Source: Hyphomicrobiaceae bacterium
GTDB lineage: Bacteria > Pseudomonadota > Alphaproteobacteria > Rhizobiales > Hyphomicrobiaceae
Assembly: GCA_016793635.1 (NCBI GenBank)
Contig: JAEUMD010000014.1
Span: 62,001 to 126,000, forward strand
Length of the DNA stretch: 64,000 bases
Direction: 5' to 3'
Of this stretch, positions 47,539-56,344 are shown piece by piece. Position 1 is the first letter of the stretch, and each line of letters begins with the position of its first letter. Made by a program: the position numbers and the translations under genes. The notes below the pieces were generated by a model. It worked only from the letters and a program-made list of their open reading frames with translations, made no database searches and was not told where the DNA came from.

Positions 47539-48822
47539 CTACTCCGCAGCCTCGGCATGCGCCTTGGCGTAGTCCTCGATCCGCTGCTCCATGACGTTGC
47601 GGAAGTTGCGGATGAGCCCCTGCACCGGCCAAGCCGCCGCATCGCCCAGCGCGCAGATCGTGTGACCTTCGACCTGCTTGGAGACATCCCACAGCATGTC
47701 GATTTCGCTCTTGCGGGCCTCGCCCTTCACCATGCGCTCCATCACGCGCCACATCCAGCCGCAGCCCTCGCGGCACGGCGTGCACTGGCCGCAACTCTCG
47801 TGCTTGTAGAAATACGAGATGCGGCTGATCGCCTTGATGATGTCAGTGGACTTGTCCATCACGATCACCGCGGCGGTGCCGAGGCCCGACTTGGCCTTCG
47901 ACAGCGCGTCGAAATCCATGGTGATGTCCTGGCACACATCGGCCGTGATGCACGGCACCGACGAGCCGCCCGGGATGACGGCGAGAAGATTGTCCCACCC
48001 GCCGCGCACGCCGCCGCAATGGCGCTCGATCAGCTCGCGCAGCGGAATGCCCATCTCTTCTTCGACGACGCACGGATTGTTCACGTGCCCGGAGATCTGG
48101 AACAGCTTGGTGCCGGTGTTGTTCGGCTTGCCGAGCGCCGAGAACCAGCCGCCGCCGCGACGCAGGATTTCGCCGACGACGGCGATACTTTCGACGTTGT
48201 TGACCGTGGTCGGCGCGCCGTAGAGGCCGCAACCGGCCGGGAACGGCGGCTTCAGGCGCGGCTGGCCCTTCTTGCCCTCGATGGACTCGATCATCGCGGT
48301 CTCTTCACCGCAGATGTAGGCACCGGCGCCGTGGTGGACGACGATGTCGAGGTCCCAGCCGTGGATGTTGTTCTTGCCGATCAGTCGGGCGGCATAGGCT
48401 TCGTCGACGGAGCGCTGGAAGCGCTCACGCTCGCGGATGTATTCGCCGCGGAAATAGATGAAGCAGGTATGCGCGCGCATGGCGAACGACGCCAGCAGCA
48501 TGCCCTCGATCAACACCTGCGGGTCGTTGCGGAGGATCTCACGGTCCTTGCACGAGCCGGGCTCGGACTCGTCCGCGTTGACGATCAGATAGCTCGGACG
48601 CGGGTCGTTCTTCGGCATGAACGACCACTTGAGGCCGGTCGGGAAGCCGGCGCCGCCGCGACCGCGCAACCCCGAGCCCTTGACCTCGTTGATGATCCAG
48701 TCATGCCCCTTGTCGATGAAGTACTTGGTTCCGTCCCAGGCACCGCGGCGACGCGCGGCGTCGAGGCCGCTGTCGTGGAAGCCATAGATGTTGCGGAAGA
48801 TACGATCCTTGTCTGCGAGCAT
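47539..48822 (-). CDS. nuoF: NADH-quinone oxidoreductase subunit F
   Basis: A 427-residue flavoprotein that binds NADH and FMN. It has [15 protein letters not shown] (NADH/FMN site), [16 protein letters not shown] and the N3 cluster motif [12 protein letters not shown]. The ATG at 48822 shares one base with the stop of the 44-residue gene upstream (TGATG). Confidence 0.96.
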
Positions 48823-48956
48823 CAGGCCTGCCTCTTCGCGACGGTGGCATAGCTGAACGTGACGAGCCCGGCTGCGCCGCATCCGGCCGCGGCGGAACCG
48901 GAGACTGCAGCGCGCGGGGCGCAATCGGGAGAATTATGGAAGCTCGCTGCCGCCAT
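48822..48956 (-). CDS. 44-residue mini-protein between nuoE and nuoF
   Basis: A short frame begins at ATG 48956, six bases after the nuoE stop, with AAGGGTG upstream, and its TGA shares a base with the nuoF ATG. It encodes [14 protein letters not shown], an Ala/Gly/Ser-rich centre ([19 protein letters not shown]) and a basic end (AKRQA). Tight packing on both sides suggests translation couples nuoE to nuoF through it. It may be only a coupling leader and not a functional protein. Confidence 0.5.
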
Positions 48957-48961
48957 TGCCG

Positions 48962-49672
48962 TCACCCTTTCGGCTTATCGGCCGGAGCCGTGCCGGCGAG
49001 CTGGCTGGCGGCGGCCTCGAGGTCGGCGAACCGGCGCTTCCATGCGCCGATGCTCGAACCATCATAGAGCGCGGGGTCCTTGAGCGAGGTCGCCGCCCCC
49101 GCCGGACACGATGCCGTGCGCCCCGTCTGCGAGCCGGGCTTCGGCGTACCGCCGGCCGCGAACGTATCGATGACACGTTCGAGGAGTTCCGGCGTCAGGT
49201 CCTCATAGGTATCCTTCCAGATCTGCACCATCGGGGCGTTGGCGCAGGAGCCGAGGCACTCGACCTCCTCCCACGAGAACTTGCCGTCGGCAGAGAGATG
49301 GTGCGGGTCCGGGTTGATTCGCCGCTTGCATGCCTCGATCAGATCGAGCGAGCCGCGCAGCATGCAGGGCGTCGTTCCGCAGACTTGAATGTGGGCGACA
49401 CTGCCGACAGGCGCGAGCTGGAACATCGTGTAGAAGGTCGCGACCTCGTAGACGCGGATGTACGCCATATCGAGCAGCTCGGCGACAAGGCGGATAGCCG
49501 GCTCGGGCAGCCAGCCGCCGTGCTGCTCCTGCGCGCGCCAAAGCACCGGGATGACCGCCGAAGCCTGCTTGCCCGGCGGATACTTCGCGACCGTCTCCTG
49601 AATCCAGGCGACGTTCTCCGGGGTGAAAGCAAAGCTCGAAGGCTGGTCGGGGTGCAGGCGGCGAACGGCCAT
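48962..49672 (-). CDS. nuoE: NADH-quinone oxidoreductase subunit E
   Basis: A 236-residue thioredoxin-like 2Fe-2S subunit (cluster N1a): [10 protein letters not shown] and CLGSCANAP hold the four Cys ligands. The start at 49672 has GAGGAG upstream. The last ~50 residues are a Pro/Ala-rich, charged tail common in alphaproteobacterial NuoE. Unlike the usual order it is 4.9 kb from nuoD. Confidence 0.95.
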
Positions 49673-49976
49673 CAATCGGCTCCTCGGACTTCGAATACCG
49701 GGCGGGGAGTGCAGCAAACCGATGGACCGGGCGGACCTGCGCGCTGGCGCGCGCAATGCAACTCGCCGGTCCCGCACCTCCCCCAGCGCAGGACATTGAT
49801 CCACTACGTCCAACCACGCCTCAAAGCAAGCTCGGTCCGGTCCGCCAAAGGCAGCAGTTCGTCTTAGCCGGCACTAGATTTTTGGTGAAGCGGCGTTGCC
49901 CTCGCATCACAACGCCCAACCCACCGGCCAGCCGAATGCTGGACGACGTGCTCTAGACGATGGAGGCTGACGGCAA
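49673..49976. other. Intergenic region upstream of nuoE
   Basis: About 300 bases without a convincing gene. Because nuoD is 5 kb away, a second promoter for nuoE-nuoN is expected here on the minus strand, but I do not see a strong one. Confidence 0.35.
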
Positions 49977-50549: not shown

Positions 50550-50960
50550 TTAAGGCTGGGGGTTGCCGAACCGCCGCCAGATCGCGGCCGCCATCCACGC
50601 ACAGACGATCCCCGACCCGGTGTGGAAGGCGATAGCCCTCAATTTTCCGCTCGATCCGGCGGCGATCGACGCATCGGCAAAGCAGACCAGCGCGCCGAGC
50701 CCGAACCAAAGCGCCAGCGCCCGCCACTCCCTGAACGCGGCCAACGCGACCGCCAGAAGCCCGAGCCATATATCTCGCAATCCGACGATATGATGCAGCT
50801 CATAGCCCGCGATCTCTCGCGCCAGACCGAAGGTGTTGGCCGCGGACCGGGGAACGATCAAGAACCTGATGCCGATGAACGCCAGAAGCAGGCCCGTGCC
50901 GACGGACAGCCACAACAGATGGCGATGCTTCGCTGGTTTCATCGGGCTCGTCTCGCGCAT
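50550..50960 (-). CDS. DUF4267-like small membrane protein
   Basis: About 136 residues with four TM helices. The pattern GIRFLIVPRSAANTFGL, then HHIVGLRDIWLGLLAVAL, matches DUF4267 proteins, which are short membrane proteins of unknown function. The ATG at 50960 is preferred over the GTG at 50969; 50942 is also possible. It belongs to the nuoD/nuoE insert. Confidence 0.65.
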   Translation of the reverse strand: MRETSPMKPAKHRHLLWLSVGTGLLLAFIGIRFLIVPRSAANTFGLAREIAGYELHHIVGLRDIWLGLLAVALAAFREWRALALWFGLGALVCFADASIAAGSSGKLRAIAFHTGSGIVCAWMAAAIWRRFGNPQP

Positions 50961-51075
50961 CGCTGACACTCACAACCGCCGGCAGCTCGCTGGCATCTAT
51001 TCAGGCGACCACCCTCCTGTCACCCTCCTCTTGGCGCGGTGTGCCTCTCCCCGTGAATCCTGACGCCGGACCGCC

Positions 51076-52209
51076 TCAGCGGAAAGACCGAAGGTAGTGC
51101 CGTTCGAAGGCGCGCTTCGACCAGTGCAGAACGCGATGGCCCGGCAGCACCACCGATCGCTTCACGTCGCGATACACCAGCATGCCGGAATCGAGCGTAT
51201 CGACGATGCAGATGAGCTCCGGCCTCGGCGTGCGCCGGGGCGCCTTGCCGGCGAGCTCGCCGACGAGGTTCTCGGTCGCGGCCTTGGCCTGCAGATCCGC
51301 CATGTGCGCCTGCTTCGGCAACCAGTCGGGACCGGGAAAGCTGCCGGCATCACCCGCGACATAGGTGCGGTCGAAGCCGGGAACGCGGCAATATTCGTCA
51401 CCCTTGATAAACCCACCGGCGGACTTCGGCAGCGCCGTATCCTTGACCCAGGCCGGCCCCGTGAGACCCGGCATGAACAAGATGAGATCGGCGTTGACGT
51501 GGCCGCCCTCGGTTTCGACGCCCTTTTCCGAGAACCCGAGCGGCTTGTGACCGAGGTGGGTGTCGATGCGCCGCCGCGCCATCTCCGCGAGCAGCCCCGT
51601 CACCGCTTTCTCGCCGAGGCGCTTGCCCGGTTCGGCGGCGGCGTTGAAGAACGTCAGCTCGACGTTGTCGCGGCGCCCCTCCTTGCGCAGCCAGGAATCG
51701 AGTCCGAACAGCAGCTCGAACATCGGGCCGCCGCGCATGGCTGTCGGCTCGTTCGGGTTGCCGCCAAAACCGAGTGCGATGCGGCCCTTGGTCAAGGCGT
51801 CGACGCGGGCACGAATCGCCTCTGCGGCGTCGATGCCTTCACACAGCGTCAGCGCGTGCTCGATGCCGGCCAGGCCCTTCATGAACCGCGCACCCGTGGC
51901 AATCAGCAAAGCATCGTTGCGCAGCGGGCCGGCGGTGGTGTGAACAGTGCGTCCGCCATCATCGACGCCCGTTACACTCGCCTCTTTGAAGCCGAGCCGG
52001 TTGCGCTTCAGGAATCTCTCCAGCGGCAGCACGATGTCGCTACGGTGACGCAGCCCCGTCGGCACCCAGATGAGGCTCGGCAGGTACTGAAACTCTGCCT
52101 TCGGCGCGACCAGCGTGATCGCGGCCTGCGGCAGCTTGCGGCGAAGGTTCCGCGCGGCGGTGAGCGCGGCGAATCCCGCTCCGAGGATTGCGATCTCAGG
52201 CTTGCCCAC
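51076..52209 (-). CDS. SQR/FCSD-like FAD-dependent pyridine-nucleotide oxidoreductase
   Basis: About 377 residues from GTG 52209, which follows a good AGGAGAT site; ATG 52224 is an alternative. It has the FAD-binding EIAILGAGFAALTAARNL, the second ATGAR motif (LLIATGARFMKG), and TYVAGDAGSF, which contacts FAD. The C-terminal VLHWSKRAFERHYLRSF resembles the amphipathic membrane-binding end of sulfide:quinone oxidoreductases. Cys residues are few, so a true SQR trisulfide mechanism is uncertain. It may feed electrons to quinone. It is divergent from the exosortase cassette. Confidence 0.75.
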   Translation of the reverse strand: MGKPEIAILGAGFAALTAARNLRRKLPQAAITLVAPKAEFQYLPSLIWVPTGLRHRSDIVLPLERFLKRNRLGFKEASVTGVDDGGRTVHTTAGPLRNDALLIATGARFMKGLAGIEHALTLCEGIDAAEAIRARVDALTKGRIALGFGGNPNEPTAMRGGPMFELLFGLDSWLRKEGRRDNVELTFFNAAAEPGKRLGEKAVTGLLAEMARRRIDTHLGHKPLGFSEKGVETEGGHVNADLILFMPGLTGPAWVKDTALPKSAGGFIKGDEYCRVPGFDRTYVAGDAGSFPGPDWLPKQAHMADLQAKAATENLVGELAGKAPRRTPRPELICIVDTLDSGMLVYRDVKRSVVLPGHRVLHWSKRAFERHYLRSFR

Positions 52210-52393
52210 GTCCCATCTCCTCATGCTCGCGTTGAAGCGATGGCGCCGCGCACCAGACCGGCTGCAAAAAGACAAAGCGCCACCGGCGCGCCGGCGGTCA
52301 AGCGGTTAGCAAGCCTCGCTGCGCGGTGCTGTGACTGCGCGCACTAAGGCGACCGCCCATATCGGTTCCATGCCGTGGCCAGCGGCTTGGCGA

Positions 52394-52456: not shown

Positions 52457-53266
52457 ATGCCAGCAGCATCTGCTCCATTCCCCCTCGCGGCAGCGACCGC
52501 CCGACTGCCCGCAGTCATCATGATCGGAGCGGCGGTCAACGCTCTCGTCGTCAGCGTGATGGCCGGCCTTGGACCGGAGGCGGCGCCGTCGATCACCTTC
52601 GGCGTCAATCCGTTTCAGCTCGTTGCCGTGGGCGTCGCGGCTCGCCTCAGTCTCGGCGATGGTGAAGCGGCCCGGCGTCATAGCCCGTGGCTCGATGCGC
52701 TCGCGGTCGCGCTCGTGCTCGTCCCGAGCAGCGCTATCGCCTGGCTGGCACTCGCCATTTACGCGGCCGTCCAAGCCACGCAAACGACTTCCGAACGTCG
52801 CGCAGGCGCGCTGATTTTCCTCGCGCTTGCCATCGCGTCGCTATGGTCCTCCGTCGTCTTGAAGTGGATCGCCCTGCCGGTCACTTCGGCGGAAGCCTTC
52901 ATGGTCGCCAAGGCGCTGGCGCCATTCCGGCCCGATATCGTCCAGATCGCGAACGTCGTCGGAGACCAGGCGACGCACAACCTCATCATCATGACCAAAT
53001 GCACGACGGCCGACGCCTTGCCTCAGTCGGCGGTCGCCCTCGCCGCCGTCGCGCTGCTGCTCGGCCCGGTGTCCCCGAGGCGGCTGCTCAACGCTTGCAT
53101 CGCCCTCGGCGCGCTCTACGCCGTCGCCAACCTCGCGCGGCTCGCGGCCATGGCGTGGTCTGCGGATTACTATGCGCTCGTGCATGGACCGATCGGCGCC
53201 AACATCTTCGATCTCTTCCAGGTAGTCGCCGTGCTCGCGCTCGCAGCCTCGGCGAGCCGTCCATGA
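52457..53266 (+). CDS. Exosortase/archaeosortase-like membrane transpeptidase
   Basis: A 269-residue polytopic membrane protein (seven or eight TM helices), starting at ATG 52457 with GGAGG 8 bases upstream. The three exosortase residues are seen in order: Cys182 (IMTKCTTADAL), Arg228 in VANLARLA and His243 in VHGPIGANIF. The Cys-to-Arg gap of 46 is like EpsH-type exosortases; the Arg-to-His gap of 15 is a little shorter. The Cys context (KCTT) replaces the usual ACSG, so it is a divergent member. The likely substrate is the 116-residue protein at 53832. It would cleave at PLPALG and transfer the protein to a cell-surface acceptor. Overlaps the next gene by 4 nt. Confidence 0.75.
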   Translation: MPAASAPFPLAAATARLPAVIMIGAAVNALVVSVMAGLGPEAAPSITFGVNPFQLVAVGVAARLSLGDGEAARRHSPWLDALAVALVLVPSSAIAWLALAIYAAVQATQTTSERRAGALIFLALAIASLWSSVVLKWIALPVTSAEAFMVAKALAPFRPDIVQIANVVGDQATHNLIIMTKCTTADALPQSAVALAAVALLLGPVSPRRLLNACIALGALYAVANLARLAAMAWSADYYALVHGPIGANIFDLFQVVAVLALAASASRP

Positions 53267-53757
53267 GGCGCGATGCGTTGAAATTCGCCGCTGTCATCGC
53301 GGCACTCGCGGTCGGTGTCGCGCTCAAGGTCGGTCGATATGCTGAGCGTGGCGATCCGGGCGCGGTCGCCGCGCACGATTACGTCGTGCGGGTGATGGCG
53401 TCGTACGGATGGGCTCCTGCAGACGGCCCGCCTGACGAAGTTCGCAATCTCTACGCACCGATGGCGTTCGAGCGGGCCGGATGCGGTGATCCCGTCGTCG
53501 TCGCCGTAATGGGTGGCAATGCGGAAGGCGCCGAGTTCTTCCGCCTCCAACACGACGGCGACGCCGCCTTCATCCAGCAGGAGGTTGTGGCGCGACCGAG
53601 CGGATTTGCCCGCCATTGGGATGCGATTGGCGGCTTCTGGGGGAAAATGACCGGTGCCGGTTCCAGCTCGGCAATGCCCGTACTGGCAATTTCGCCCGCG
53701 CCCGCTGCCGGAAATGCGGGCTGCGGCGGACCACCGGTCGAGGCTTGGCACCGCTGA
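53263..53757 (+). CDS. Exosortase-coupled anchored protein of unknown function
   Basis: A 164-residue protein whose ATG overlaps the exosortase stop by 4 nt (ATGA). An N-terminal signal anchor (residues 8-22) is followed by a soluble extracytoplasmic domain of about 140 residues with Cys in AGCGDPVVV and NAGCGGPP. It somewhat resembles in layout the EpsI-type partners found with other exosortases, but no family is recognised. It probably works with the exosortase. Confidence 0.65.
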   Translation: MRRDALKFAAVIAALAVGVALKVGRYAERGDPGAVAAHDYVVRVMASYGWAPADGPPDEVRNLYAPMAFERAGCGDPVVVAVMGGNAEGAEFFRLQHDGDAAFIQQEVVARPSGFARHWDAIGGFWGKMTGAGSSSAMPVLAISPAPAAGNAGCGGPPVEAWHR

Positions 53758-53831
53758 TCGGGCGCCCGCCCGTGAAGCTTTCCTTAAGCTGGACCGGATA
53801 ATTTATCTCCTAATAGTAGAGGAGTTAGCTC

Positions 53832-54182
53832 ATGCCCTATAAAATAAGCAAAATGAGCATATCCGGGCTGGTTTCACTCAGTGTGCTGAGTATATTTATT
53901 GCCGTGTCGGACGGCCACGCTGCACCGGGCGGAAACGGCAATGGCAACGCCTATGGCCTGGGAAATGGAAACGGCACTGGTAACGCCTACGGACTGGGCG
54001 GCGGCCGGGCCGGCGGCGGAAATCCCAACGTTCCGGGTGGCGGAGCCCCGCTGCCCGCACTTGGCGTAACGCTATTGGGCCAAGCGGCTGGTGCGGCAGG
54101 TCTTTTCGCATTGTGGCGGCGCCGGCGCAGCAAGCAGGCCGACGCCCGACGCACCAGCCACGACCACGCGACAATGATGTAA
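53832..54182 (+). CDS. Gly/Asn-rich secreted protein with C-terminal sorting signal
   Basis: A 116-residue protein from ATG 53832 with GGAG 7 bases upstream. Residues 1-30 are a signal peptide (cleavage near GHA). Residues 32-72 are Gly/Asn-rich with a near-repeat GNAYGLGNGNG and GNAYGLGGG. The C-terminus has the three parts of a PEP-CTERM-type signal: PLPALG (73-78), a hydrophobic helix (about 77-95) and RRRR (96-99). The tail of 17 residues after RRRR is longer than usual. AT-rich bases just upstream (GATAATTTAT) suggest its own promoter. Likely substrate of the exosortase. Confidence 0.75.
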   Translation: MPYKISKMSISGLVSLSVLSIFIAVSDGHAAPGGNGNGNAYGLGNGNGTGNAYGLGGGRAGGGNPNVPGGGAPLPALGVTLLGQAAGAAGLFALWRRRRSKQADARRTSHDHATMM

Positions 54183-54308: not shown

Positions 54309-54638
54309 TTAGCGCCCGGCCGGCACCTCGGTGAGGGAATAACACCCGTTCGAGCGCATGCCGCTGCGGCCGCCCTTCATCTCGCAGACGAGCGCGTCGC
54401 GGCCCTTGATCCACACCTCGATCACCCAGAACACTCCCTCGAGGTCCTTGGGACTTTCGGTGCGATACTTGAGTATCCACCCGCCGTCGCGCAGCGTCGG
54501 TGCGCACCAGCGTGCCTCCGTCTTTTCCGGGCACGCATCGTTGAACCAATCGTCTTTCGAACTGGCGGCCTTCGAGCCGCCGGCGTGAAAAGTCGCCACC
54601 GCGAGCCCAATGAACGCGGCAGCGCGTAGCCGCCTCAC
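54309..54638 (-). CDS. Secreted four-Cys protein coupled to nuoD
   Basis: A 109-residue protein starting at GTG 54638, which overlaps the nuoD stop by 4 nt (GTGA). A signal peptide ([16 protein letters not shown], cleavage near KAA) leads to a small domain with four Cys (NDACPEK, ARWCAP, ALVCEM, SNGCYS). It is therefore a periplasmic protein translated with a cytoplasmic complex I subunit. No family recognised. Weak ribosome signals and the GTG start make it easy to miss. Confidence 0.65.
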
Positions 54639-55825
54639 CGGTCGATCTCGCCGAACACGATGTCGAGCGAGCCGATCACGGCCGAGACGTCGGCCAGCAT
54701 GTGACCGCGCGTGAGGAAGTCCATCGCGGCGAGGTGCGGGAAGCCGGGAGCGCGGATCTTGCAACGGTATGGCTTGTTCGATCCATCGGCGACGAGGTAG
54801 ACGCCGAACTCGCCCTTCGGCGCCTCGACCGCAGCGTAGACTTCGCCTGCTGGAACGTGGAAGCCCTCGGTATAGAGCTTGAAGTGGTGGATAAGCGCCT
54901 CCATCGAGCGCTTCATCTCACCGCGCTTCGGCGGCACGACCTTCTTGTTCTCGGCCGACACCGGCCCGCGCCCTTCCGCGCTCAGCAGCCGCACGCAGCA
55001 CTGCTTCATGATCTTCACCGACTCGCGCATCTCCTGCATGCGGATGAGATAGCGGTCGTAGCAGTCGCCGTTCTTGCCGATCGGAATATTGAAATCGAGC
55101 TCGGAGTAGCACTCGTAGGGCTGCGCCTTGCGCAGATCCCAGGCTGCGCCGGACCCGCGCACCATCACGCCGGAGAAGCCCCAGTCGAAGGCGTCGTCGA
55201 GCTTGACGATGCCGATATCGACGTTGCGCTGCTTGAAGATGCGGTTGTCGGTCAGCAATCCCTCGATGTCGTCGCAGACCTTGAGGAAGGGATCGCACCA
55301 GTCGAGGATGTCGCGTACCAGCTCGTCCGGCAGGTCCTGATGGACGCCGCCGATGCGGAAGTACTTCGCATGCATGCGCGAACCCGAAGCGCGCTCGTAG
55401 AAGATCATCAGCTTCTCGCGCTCCTCGAACCCCCACAGCGGCGGGGTGAGCGCGCCGACGTCCATCGCCTGCGTCGTGACGTTGAGAAGGTGCGAGAGCA
55501 GGCGCCCGATCTCGGAGTAGAGCACGCGGATGAGCTGGCCGCGGTAGGGTACGGTGAGCCCGAGGAGCTTCTCCGCGGCGAGGCAGAAGGCGTGCTCCTG
55601 ATTCATCGGGGCGCAGTAGTCGAGACGGTCGAAGTAGCCGATCGCCTGCAGGTAGGTCTTGTGCTCGATCAGCTTCTCGGTGCCGCGATGCAGCAGGCCG
55701 ACGTGCGGATCGACGCGCTTGACCACCTCGCCGTCGAGTTCGAGCACCAGACGCAGCACGCCATGCGCCGCCGGATGCTGCGGGCCGAAGTTGATATTGA
55801 ACGAGCGGATGTCTGCTTCAGCCAT
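54635..55825 (-). CDS. nuoD: NADH-quinone oxidoreductase subunit D
   Basis: A 396-residue 49-kDa-type subunit that holds the quinone site with NuoB and NuoH. It has [14 protein letters not shown] at the N-terminus, [15 protein letters not shown] and [17 protein letters not shown] at the end. The ATG at 55825 is preferred. It is the fourth nuo gene, 69 bases downstream of the thioesterase gene. Confidence 0.96.
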
Positions 55826-55894
55826 TGCTTGCCTCGTGCGGGAGCCTCCCACGGGCTCCCCGATACGTGAAAACTTGAACCCGAACCGTGCAGC

Positions 55895-56344
55895 TCAGCT
55901 CGTGCGTCGTGCCACCGGACCGACGCGCGCCGCCTTCGCCTTCTCGTTGACCTTGGCCTCGAACTTGTCCCACGGCACAACCGCGCGCTCGTGTAGCCCC
56001 TCGCCGATCATGTCGATGCCGTCGTGGGCGCGCACCTTGAACGAGACGCGACGCCCCCGCACGGCCGTGCACTCTGCGTCGACCGTGACGATCTGGCCCG
56101 GCACAGTCGCCGCCACATGCGTCACATCAACGTGCGTGCCGAGTGACCCTTCGCCCGGATCGAGATGCGGCGTCAGCATCTGCACGCACGTCCACTCCAT
56201 CAATCCGACCATGAACCCCGTCGCGAACACCGTCGGCATGAGCTGGAACTCGTGCGCCTCGGGATAAAGATTGGGGACCGTCTTGTCGGCCGGCACCTTG
56301 TAGGCGAACTGAAAGGTGGCACCGGGTTTCAGAGTGTCTTTCAT
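55895..56344 (-). CDS. FlK-type hotdog thioesterase
   Basis: A 149-residue hotdog-fold thioesterase very close in layout to fluoroacetyl-CoA thioesterase FlK. The catalytic residues fall at the same numbers: Thr42 (FATGF), Glu50 (GLMEW) and His76 (DVTHVAAT). FlK's Phe36 lid, which gives its fluoroacetyl selectivity, is Met36 here, so it probably hydrolyses some other small acyl-CoA. It is inserted between nuoC and nuoD on the same strand with short gaps, so it is likely co-transcribed with complex I. The physiological link is unknown. Confidence 0.85.
   Translation of the reverse strand: MKDTLKPGATFQFAYKVPADKTVPNLYPEAHEFQLMPTVFATGFMVGLMEWTCVQMLTPHLDPGEGSLGTHVDVTHVAATVPGQIVTVDAECTAVRGRRVSFKVRAHDGIDMIGEGLHERAVVPWDKFEAKVNEKAKAARVGPVARRTS

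Follow-up and report, generated by a model that had tools for sequence, protein, structure and literature searches.

A compact exosortase, an anchored partner and an adjacent secreted protein in a Hyphomicrobiaceae genome: a probable dedicated sorting system

The three-gene unit

In the 64-kb stretch of Hyphomicrobiaceae DNA analysed here (the window, from the genome G000), three adjoining genes are found on the plus strand, as an earlier sequence-only reading of this DNA had described, and both the open reading frames and the sequence agree with that description. The genes, and the signal at the end of the third, are:

52457..53266 (+), putative compact exosortase gene (xrt), 269 aa, ATG at 52457; catalytic candidates C182, R228 (in N225-x-x-R) and H243 (in H-x-x-x-G247)
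53263..53757 (+), P2, N-terminally anchored partner, 164 aa, ATG at 53263; conserved K22, R25, W50, F69, C74, P139-x-L-A and C154
53832..54182 (+), target, predicted secreted Gly/Asn-rich protein, 116 aa, ATG at 53832; C-terminal signal PLPALG-helix-RRRR
54036..54131 (+), putative C-terminal sorting signal GGGAPLPALGVTLLGQAAGAAGLFALWRRRRS, target residues 69-100, aligned with 10 other tails

The start codon of P2 and the stop codon of xrt share an overlap of 4 nt, and P2 has an N-terminal hydrophobic anchor, in keeping with the earlier claim of an anchored partner coupled to the enzyme. A gap of 74 nt separates P2 from the target gene. A scan for sigma-70 promoters found no site.

The target begins with a hydrophobic stretch which, read by eye, ends at ...SDGHA/APGG. 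Its middle part carries a GNGNAYGLG-type repeat, in two 32-nt copies that are 88% alike. Towards the C-terminus follow PLPALG, a helix free of charged residues, RRRR and a last stretch of 17 residues. The 116-residue protein is therefore as it had been described, with the signal peptide resting on inspection by eye. When the 64-kb window was scanned mechanically for an N-terminal hydrophobic stretch combined with a P-motif/helix/basic C-terminus, the target was the single match.

Comparison of G000 with its near relative G078 (Nei-Gojobori) gave dN/dS values of 0.117 (xrt) and 0.139 (P2 and target alike); the dS of the target, 1.14, is close to saturation. With 0.12-0.14 in all three, the values fit genes that are translated and kept by purifying selection.

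The enzyme, its family and the partner protein

The residues proposed as catalytic, Cys182, Arg228 and His243, had been placed correctly: C182, N225, R228, H243 and G247 are invariant in 10/10 close homologues, the window enzyme included. The same Cys, Asn-x-x-Arg and His-x-x-x-Gly occur in this order in all 36 compact enzymes aligned (10 close and 26 distant). According to the part of the EpsH paper drawn on here (PMC1569441), the canonical motif of EpsH is Cys-Xaa-Gly. This motif is absent from all 36 compact enzymes, in which the third residue of the Cys-x-x motif is Ser, Thr or Val and never Gly. The context in the window enzyme, KCTT, had been called non-standard; it is the form that C-[TAS]-[TS], the motif of this clade, takes locally. 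In a tree the ten close enzymes form one clade with a local support of 0.991, several inner branches being poorly supported.

A hydropathy scan of the enzyme gave about six to seven separate segments, the superfamily expectation being about eight transmembrane helices with the catalytic residues facing the periplasm. AlphaFold models from two-row alignments reached pLDDT values of 41 (enzyme) and 40 (P2), too low for use, and sequence searches of the PDB returned chance matches only.

The enzyme had been taken for a divergent exosortase, to be checked with family HMMs. In NCBIfam the window enzyme stayed under every cut-off, and Pfam gave no exosortase match for it. Its top NCBIfam match is XrtS (NF033767), in the catalytic region, as it is for three homologues (22.0-23.2 bits), a fourth scoring 9.9; membership of XrtS was rejected since the 20.9 bits of the window enzyme lie far under the 145-bit cut-off. 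With TIGR04178 (cut-off 23 bits) the window enzyme scored 7 bits in one scan and 15.7 in another, and none of six close homologues scanned reached the cut-off. The enzyme at L018 had no NCBIfam match and that at L021 a TIGR04178 match only. When the own genome was searched with TIGR04178 at E up to 0.1, the one match was the window enzyme itself (E 0.044).

Profile comparison by way of compact intermediates bore the family assignment out. With hhalign the enzyme profile matched five distant compact exosortases at E 1.8e-23 (probability 99.6), three of which score 23.1 bits with TIGR04178 (two of those 19.7 and 19.5 in another scan), whereas four other membrane proteins of the window, run as single sequences, gave E 0.29-0.81. 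TIGR04178 was moreover passed by three of ten further compact relatives scanned (L051, L112 and L115, with 26.4, 24.6 and 24.1 bits), in whose genomes the enzyme profile matches at E 2.7e-19, 8.3e-21 and 1.4e-15, respectively. Against four XrtA-like N-halves the result was E 0.0024 with probability 12; in that alignment C182 and N225/R228 are in register and the catalytic His lies at the extreme edge, out of register. The window enzyme would thus join the exosortase/archaeosortase superfamily through compact intermediates, a placement that is supported by these comparisons, the direct XrtA-like link being weak.

It could be argued, from the NCBIfam and Pfam cut-offs that were missed and from the weak direct similarity to XrtA-like enzymes, that this membrane protein is unrelated to exosortases, that its Cys, Arg and His are there by chance and that the target simply carries a C-terminal anchor. 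We consider this very improbable in view of the match to the distant compact exosortases, of the relatives matched by the enzyme profile which pass TIGR04178, of the invariant N-x-x-R and H-x-x-x-G spacing, and of a tripartite tail that co-occurs with the enzyme in 10/10 genomes.

A second kind of exosortase is found in the same family of bacteria. These long fused enzymes pass the TIGR04178 cut-off and differ from the window enzyme in length (about 545-590 aa), in a second domain with EELAFRG, in their separate locus and in the lack of a direct profile match. We take them to be XrtE, and their EELAFRG domain to be CPBP-like. The XrtE-type profile, made from nine long exosortases kept from 30 loci by a composition/motif filter, gave no detectable match with the enzyme profile in hhalign (E 0.3). 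These nine, all with EELAFRG, are at L070, L075-L078, L080, L081, L085 and L090. Of 102 family genomes, 33 have TIGR04178 matches above the cut-off, for the most part in frames of 500-630 aa, and such long-frame matches are also present in the trio-bearing genomes G073 and G031.

As regards the partner, twelve residues of P2 are invariant across eight sequences, C74 and C154 among them. Compared by hhalign with the EpsI halves of four fusions, P2 gave no alignment (E 0.18), on which ground its homology to EpsI was rejected, and a TIGR02914 search of G000 at E up to 0.001 found no match. With seven proteins encoded downstream of other compact exosortases P2 aligned at E 1e-7 (probability 94). 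None of ten partners of compact exosortases scanned reached an NCBIfam cut-off.

Distribution, targets and genomic surroundings of the trio

The enzyme search of 103 family genomes gave matches in 13: five are distant, and eight, counting the own genome, are close, with E values of 1.5e-49 or lower. A scan of genome contigs gave one close relative, L001. P2 and a tailed protein adjoin the enzyme in 8/8 close family loci. A profile built from the eight close enzymes matched in 18 of 397 genomes of the order, the new close ones being G126 and G139, which belong to other families. These two were found by the enzyme profile alone and neither was used in building the P2 or target profiles; they nonetheless carry P2 (E 2e-36 and 3.8e-18) and a target (E 1.5e-13 and 3.5e-10), with tails, PAPLLAS and PLPGVAL respectively, that deviate from PLPxLG. 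The complete trio is consequently present in all ten genomes found to have a close enzyme homologue (8 from the family and 2 from the order).

At greater distance, nine of 386 class genomes matched; besides the own genome these are eight whose compact enzymes are distant (E 4.1e-32 to 1.4e-16). Six of 397 phylum genomes matched, five of these being already known from the own class and one marginal and stop-containing. In the nine regions around the class matches the PLPxLG tail profile had no match (lowest E 0.08), and a P2-like protein was found in three of them (E 3.7e-16, 1.8e-8 and 2.5e-5).

The sequence-only reading had proposed looking for other PLPALG-TM-Arg C-termini. With the target profile, the own genome yields one credible place, that beside the enzyme (E 8.7e-23), and three others with E above 1. 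A second match, on C19 (E 3.3e-4), was rejected, as it falls in the first part of a long Arg/Asp-rich frame and is not C-terminal; that frame runs opposite to a 147-aa ORF resembling a membrane protein. Across 102 family genomes there are nine strong target places (E 5.8e-17 or better), all in the eight enzyme-bearing genomes and none farther than about 1.4 kb from the enzyme; the remaining 94 genomes have no place as strong. Since the target profile was made from tails beside the enzyme, detection in those eight genomes is partly by construction, and in many genomes just 71 first-look candidates were scored; the independent part of the result is given by G126 and G139 and by the absence of strong copies from the other 94 genomes. 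Fourteen further places across the 102 genomes have E values of 5e-4 to 0.01, that on C19 being the one inspected. Seven of the eight family genomes, the own genome among them, thus have a single target near the enzyme and G085 has two. In G085 (L021:8157-8858) the two targets, PLPILG and PIPLLG, stand in tandem by one enzyme, the sole such duplication among the ten loci.

The enzyme might have additional targets bearing other tails, the adjacent protein being one of several. In related compact systems the tail motifs do vary widely, and a tail that has diverged would escape a profile of 43-44 positions. On the other side, the search of the own genome yielded the one credible place only, and the second strong target of G085 is in tandem with the first, so that we hold several targets to be unlikely.

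The trio lies among the following neighbours in the window:

47539-48924, nuoF, beyond nuoE
48962-49813, nuoE, beyond the Pyr_redox_2 gene
51076-52275 (-), Pyr_redox_2 gene, neighbour of the trio on the side opposite to nuoD
54635-55852 (-), nuoD, neighbour of the trio

It stands between nuoD and the Pyr_redox_2 gene, on the strand opposite to both, and breaks the nuo cluster at a point between nuoD and nuoE. A gene of the fluoroacetyl-CoA thioesterase family (FlK-like; 55895-56344, -) lies between nuoC and nuoD, as it also does in G076 and G051. Pyr_redox_2 and DUF4267 genes (50550-52275, -) lie between nuoD and nuoE, and this pair is found in G076 too; G051 has DUF4267 without a Pyr_redox_2 match, and neither was matched in G085.

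The location alone in the nuo cluster had been pointed out before. The position is correct, but among the ten loci both-side flanks are common only to G000 and G078, and the position is uninformative on function. In G076, of the same genus, the order nuoC-FlK-nuoD-PyrRedox-DUF4267-nuoE-nuoF is that of the window with the site free of the trio, about 375 nt separating the nuoD and PyrRedox matches, and the trio is on another contig. G077, also of this genus, has no enzyme match, and its partial nuo contig has no trio. The trio could also be a mere passenger, or belong to the nuo operon and act in respiration, as its position between nuoD and nuoE in G000, and in the corresponding stretch of G078, might suggest. 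It is found elsewhere in the remaining eight genomes, however, and it lies on the opposite strand; nuo is hence a mere location here, the functional link was rejected on the trio-free nuo order of G076, and we regard a respiratory role as extremely unlikely.

Nine arrangements are seen in the ten genomes. Those of G076 and G087 have in common a PHO4-family gene (68%) and a small neighbour (39%); the distance of these from the trio is 3 to 5 kb in G076 and at most about 2.2 kb in G087. Flanking proteins were chosen by a GC-frame heuristic, two to four per locus at nine loci; among these 29 Pfam gave no family named for polysaccharide synthesis or export, three being without a Pfam match. They include RecQ-like and RecG-like helicases, a pyrophosphatase, DapB, an MlaC-like protein and a beta-barrel protein.

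Around the window trio no transposon-type terminal repeats were seen. In G051 a 328-aa ORF (L018:4820-5806, -), about 1.3 kb upstream of the trio, matches Arm-DNA-bind_3 and Phage_int_SAM_3, which are phage-integrase N-terminal families; it had no catalytic-domain match. The intact trio in changing surroundings, together with the trio-free nuo site, indicates that the trio behaves as one transferable unit. The description as a self-contained cassette with one dedicated substrate is accordingly upheld by the ten complete trios, their varied surroundings and the one credible target in the own genome.

Related compact systems, known systems and the proposed mechanism

Twelve of the 26 distant compact loci (L023, L024, L025, L027, L050, L056, L057, L058, L060, L108, L112 and L115) have within 2.5 kb a plausible target, a short secreted protein with a tail type of its own, that at L058 (236 aa) being less typical. 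The P-motif/helix/basic scan found no target at ten of the 26 loci, and control stretches from the same loci gave two matches in 110,937 bases. Matches at L051, L053, L054 and L059 were judged to be non-targets, three of them being the enzyme itself. A looser pattern gave two more possible targets, at the G091 locus and at L113. The tails include PLPxLGxTLLGQ in the present system and, elsewhere, PAPGPLIGxGxP, PGPxxGxGLP and P-x-PVxGxVAGPWGLVA; PAPGPLIGLGMP and PGPLEGVGLP are distant examples, and at one locus the tail TPGPVLGMVAGPWGLVA occurs in a row of tandem copies. At L057:6213-7128 four tandem short proteins with near-alike P-x-P...VAGPWGLVA...YRA tails follow a compact exosortase. The separate tail types at 12/26 loci suggest enzyme/target pairs that may have diversified together.

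The well-studied exosortases have many substrates and lie mostly in EPS loci, as far as can be taken from the portion of PMC1569441 used here. Like XrtA/EpsH with PEP-CTERM in that portion (PMC1569441), the window enzyme is apparently polytopic with an ordered Cys, Asn-x-x-Arg and His-x-x-x-Gly, the putative substrate has a signal peptide and a motif-helix-basic tail, and there is a partner, downstream or fused, which is EpsI there and P2 here. The window system differs in having Cys-x-Ser/Thr in place of Cys-x-Gly, PLPxLG in place of PEP and a single target; the 29 flanking proteins scanned include none from polysaccharide genes, and P2 is not alignable with EpsI.

Archaeosortase A of Haloferax volcanii also has an active-site Cys and removes a C-terminal peptide, and the section of PMC7157517 considered puts forward, as speculation, a thioester-type intermediate resolved by an amine lipid; it is archaeal, and its lipid step is not evidenced for the window system. 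The dedicated rhombosortase/GlyGly-CTERM pairs (PMC3237569, in the part drawn on) likewise have the sole target encoded beside the enzyme, but the enzyme family is unrelated.

The unit had been put forward as undescribed. In NCBIfam release 20 the enzyme subfamily, the PLPxLG tail and the partner family are indeed all unnamed, but the word goes too far: one-target 'dedicated systems' are an already named concept, as the same part of PMC3237569 states, and by way of intermediates the enzyme belongs with the exosortase/archaeosortase superfamily. No paper combining exosortase and XrtS was found in the literature searched, the J Bacteriol archaeosortase/exosortase survey lying outside the search, and exosortase and Hyphomicrobium occurred together only in one paper, apparently on a cytochrome.

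Taking the evidence together, we consider that the trio is a dedicated exosortase system, with a probability of about 0.85. For its topology, cleavage, acceptor and the role of P2 we infer the following from the proposal made for EpsH (PMC1569441) and from archaeosortase A (PMC7157517), as far as the parts of these papers used here extend. The target would be exported by means of its signal peptide, and its C-terminal helix would halt in the inner membrane with the RRRR cluster inside and PLPALG displayed at the periplasmic face. C182, assisted by R228 and H243, may then attack near PLPALG, so that the helix is removed and the remaining Gly/Asn-rich peptide of about 40 residues could be passed on, with a periplasmic molecule, a lipid or water as the acceptor. 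P2, probably translationally coupled and anchored beside the enzyme, may aid the handling of substrate or acceptor, in a manner analogous and not homologous to EpsI.

For the Alphaproteobacteria as a whole we lean, by a small margin of confidence, towards a large and mostly unnamed radiation of compact exosortases, many of which would travel as a unit with a P2-like partner, from one new family, and a short target with a co-diverged tail; these would form a natural set of orthogonal enzyme/signal pairs, with P2 a required cofactor. Sorting systems of this type as a rule act on many proteins, and the trio itself appears to be a form with one enzyme and one substrate. With three genes and one 116-residue substrate it is a near-minimal system for direct tests of the cleavage site, the acceptor and the function of the partner, and swaps of enzymes and targets with the related compact systems that have other tails would map specificity.
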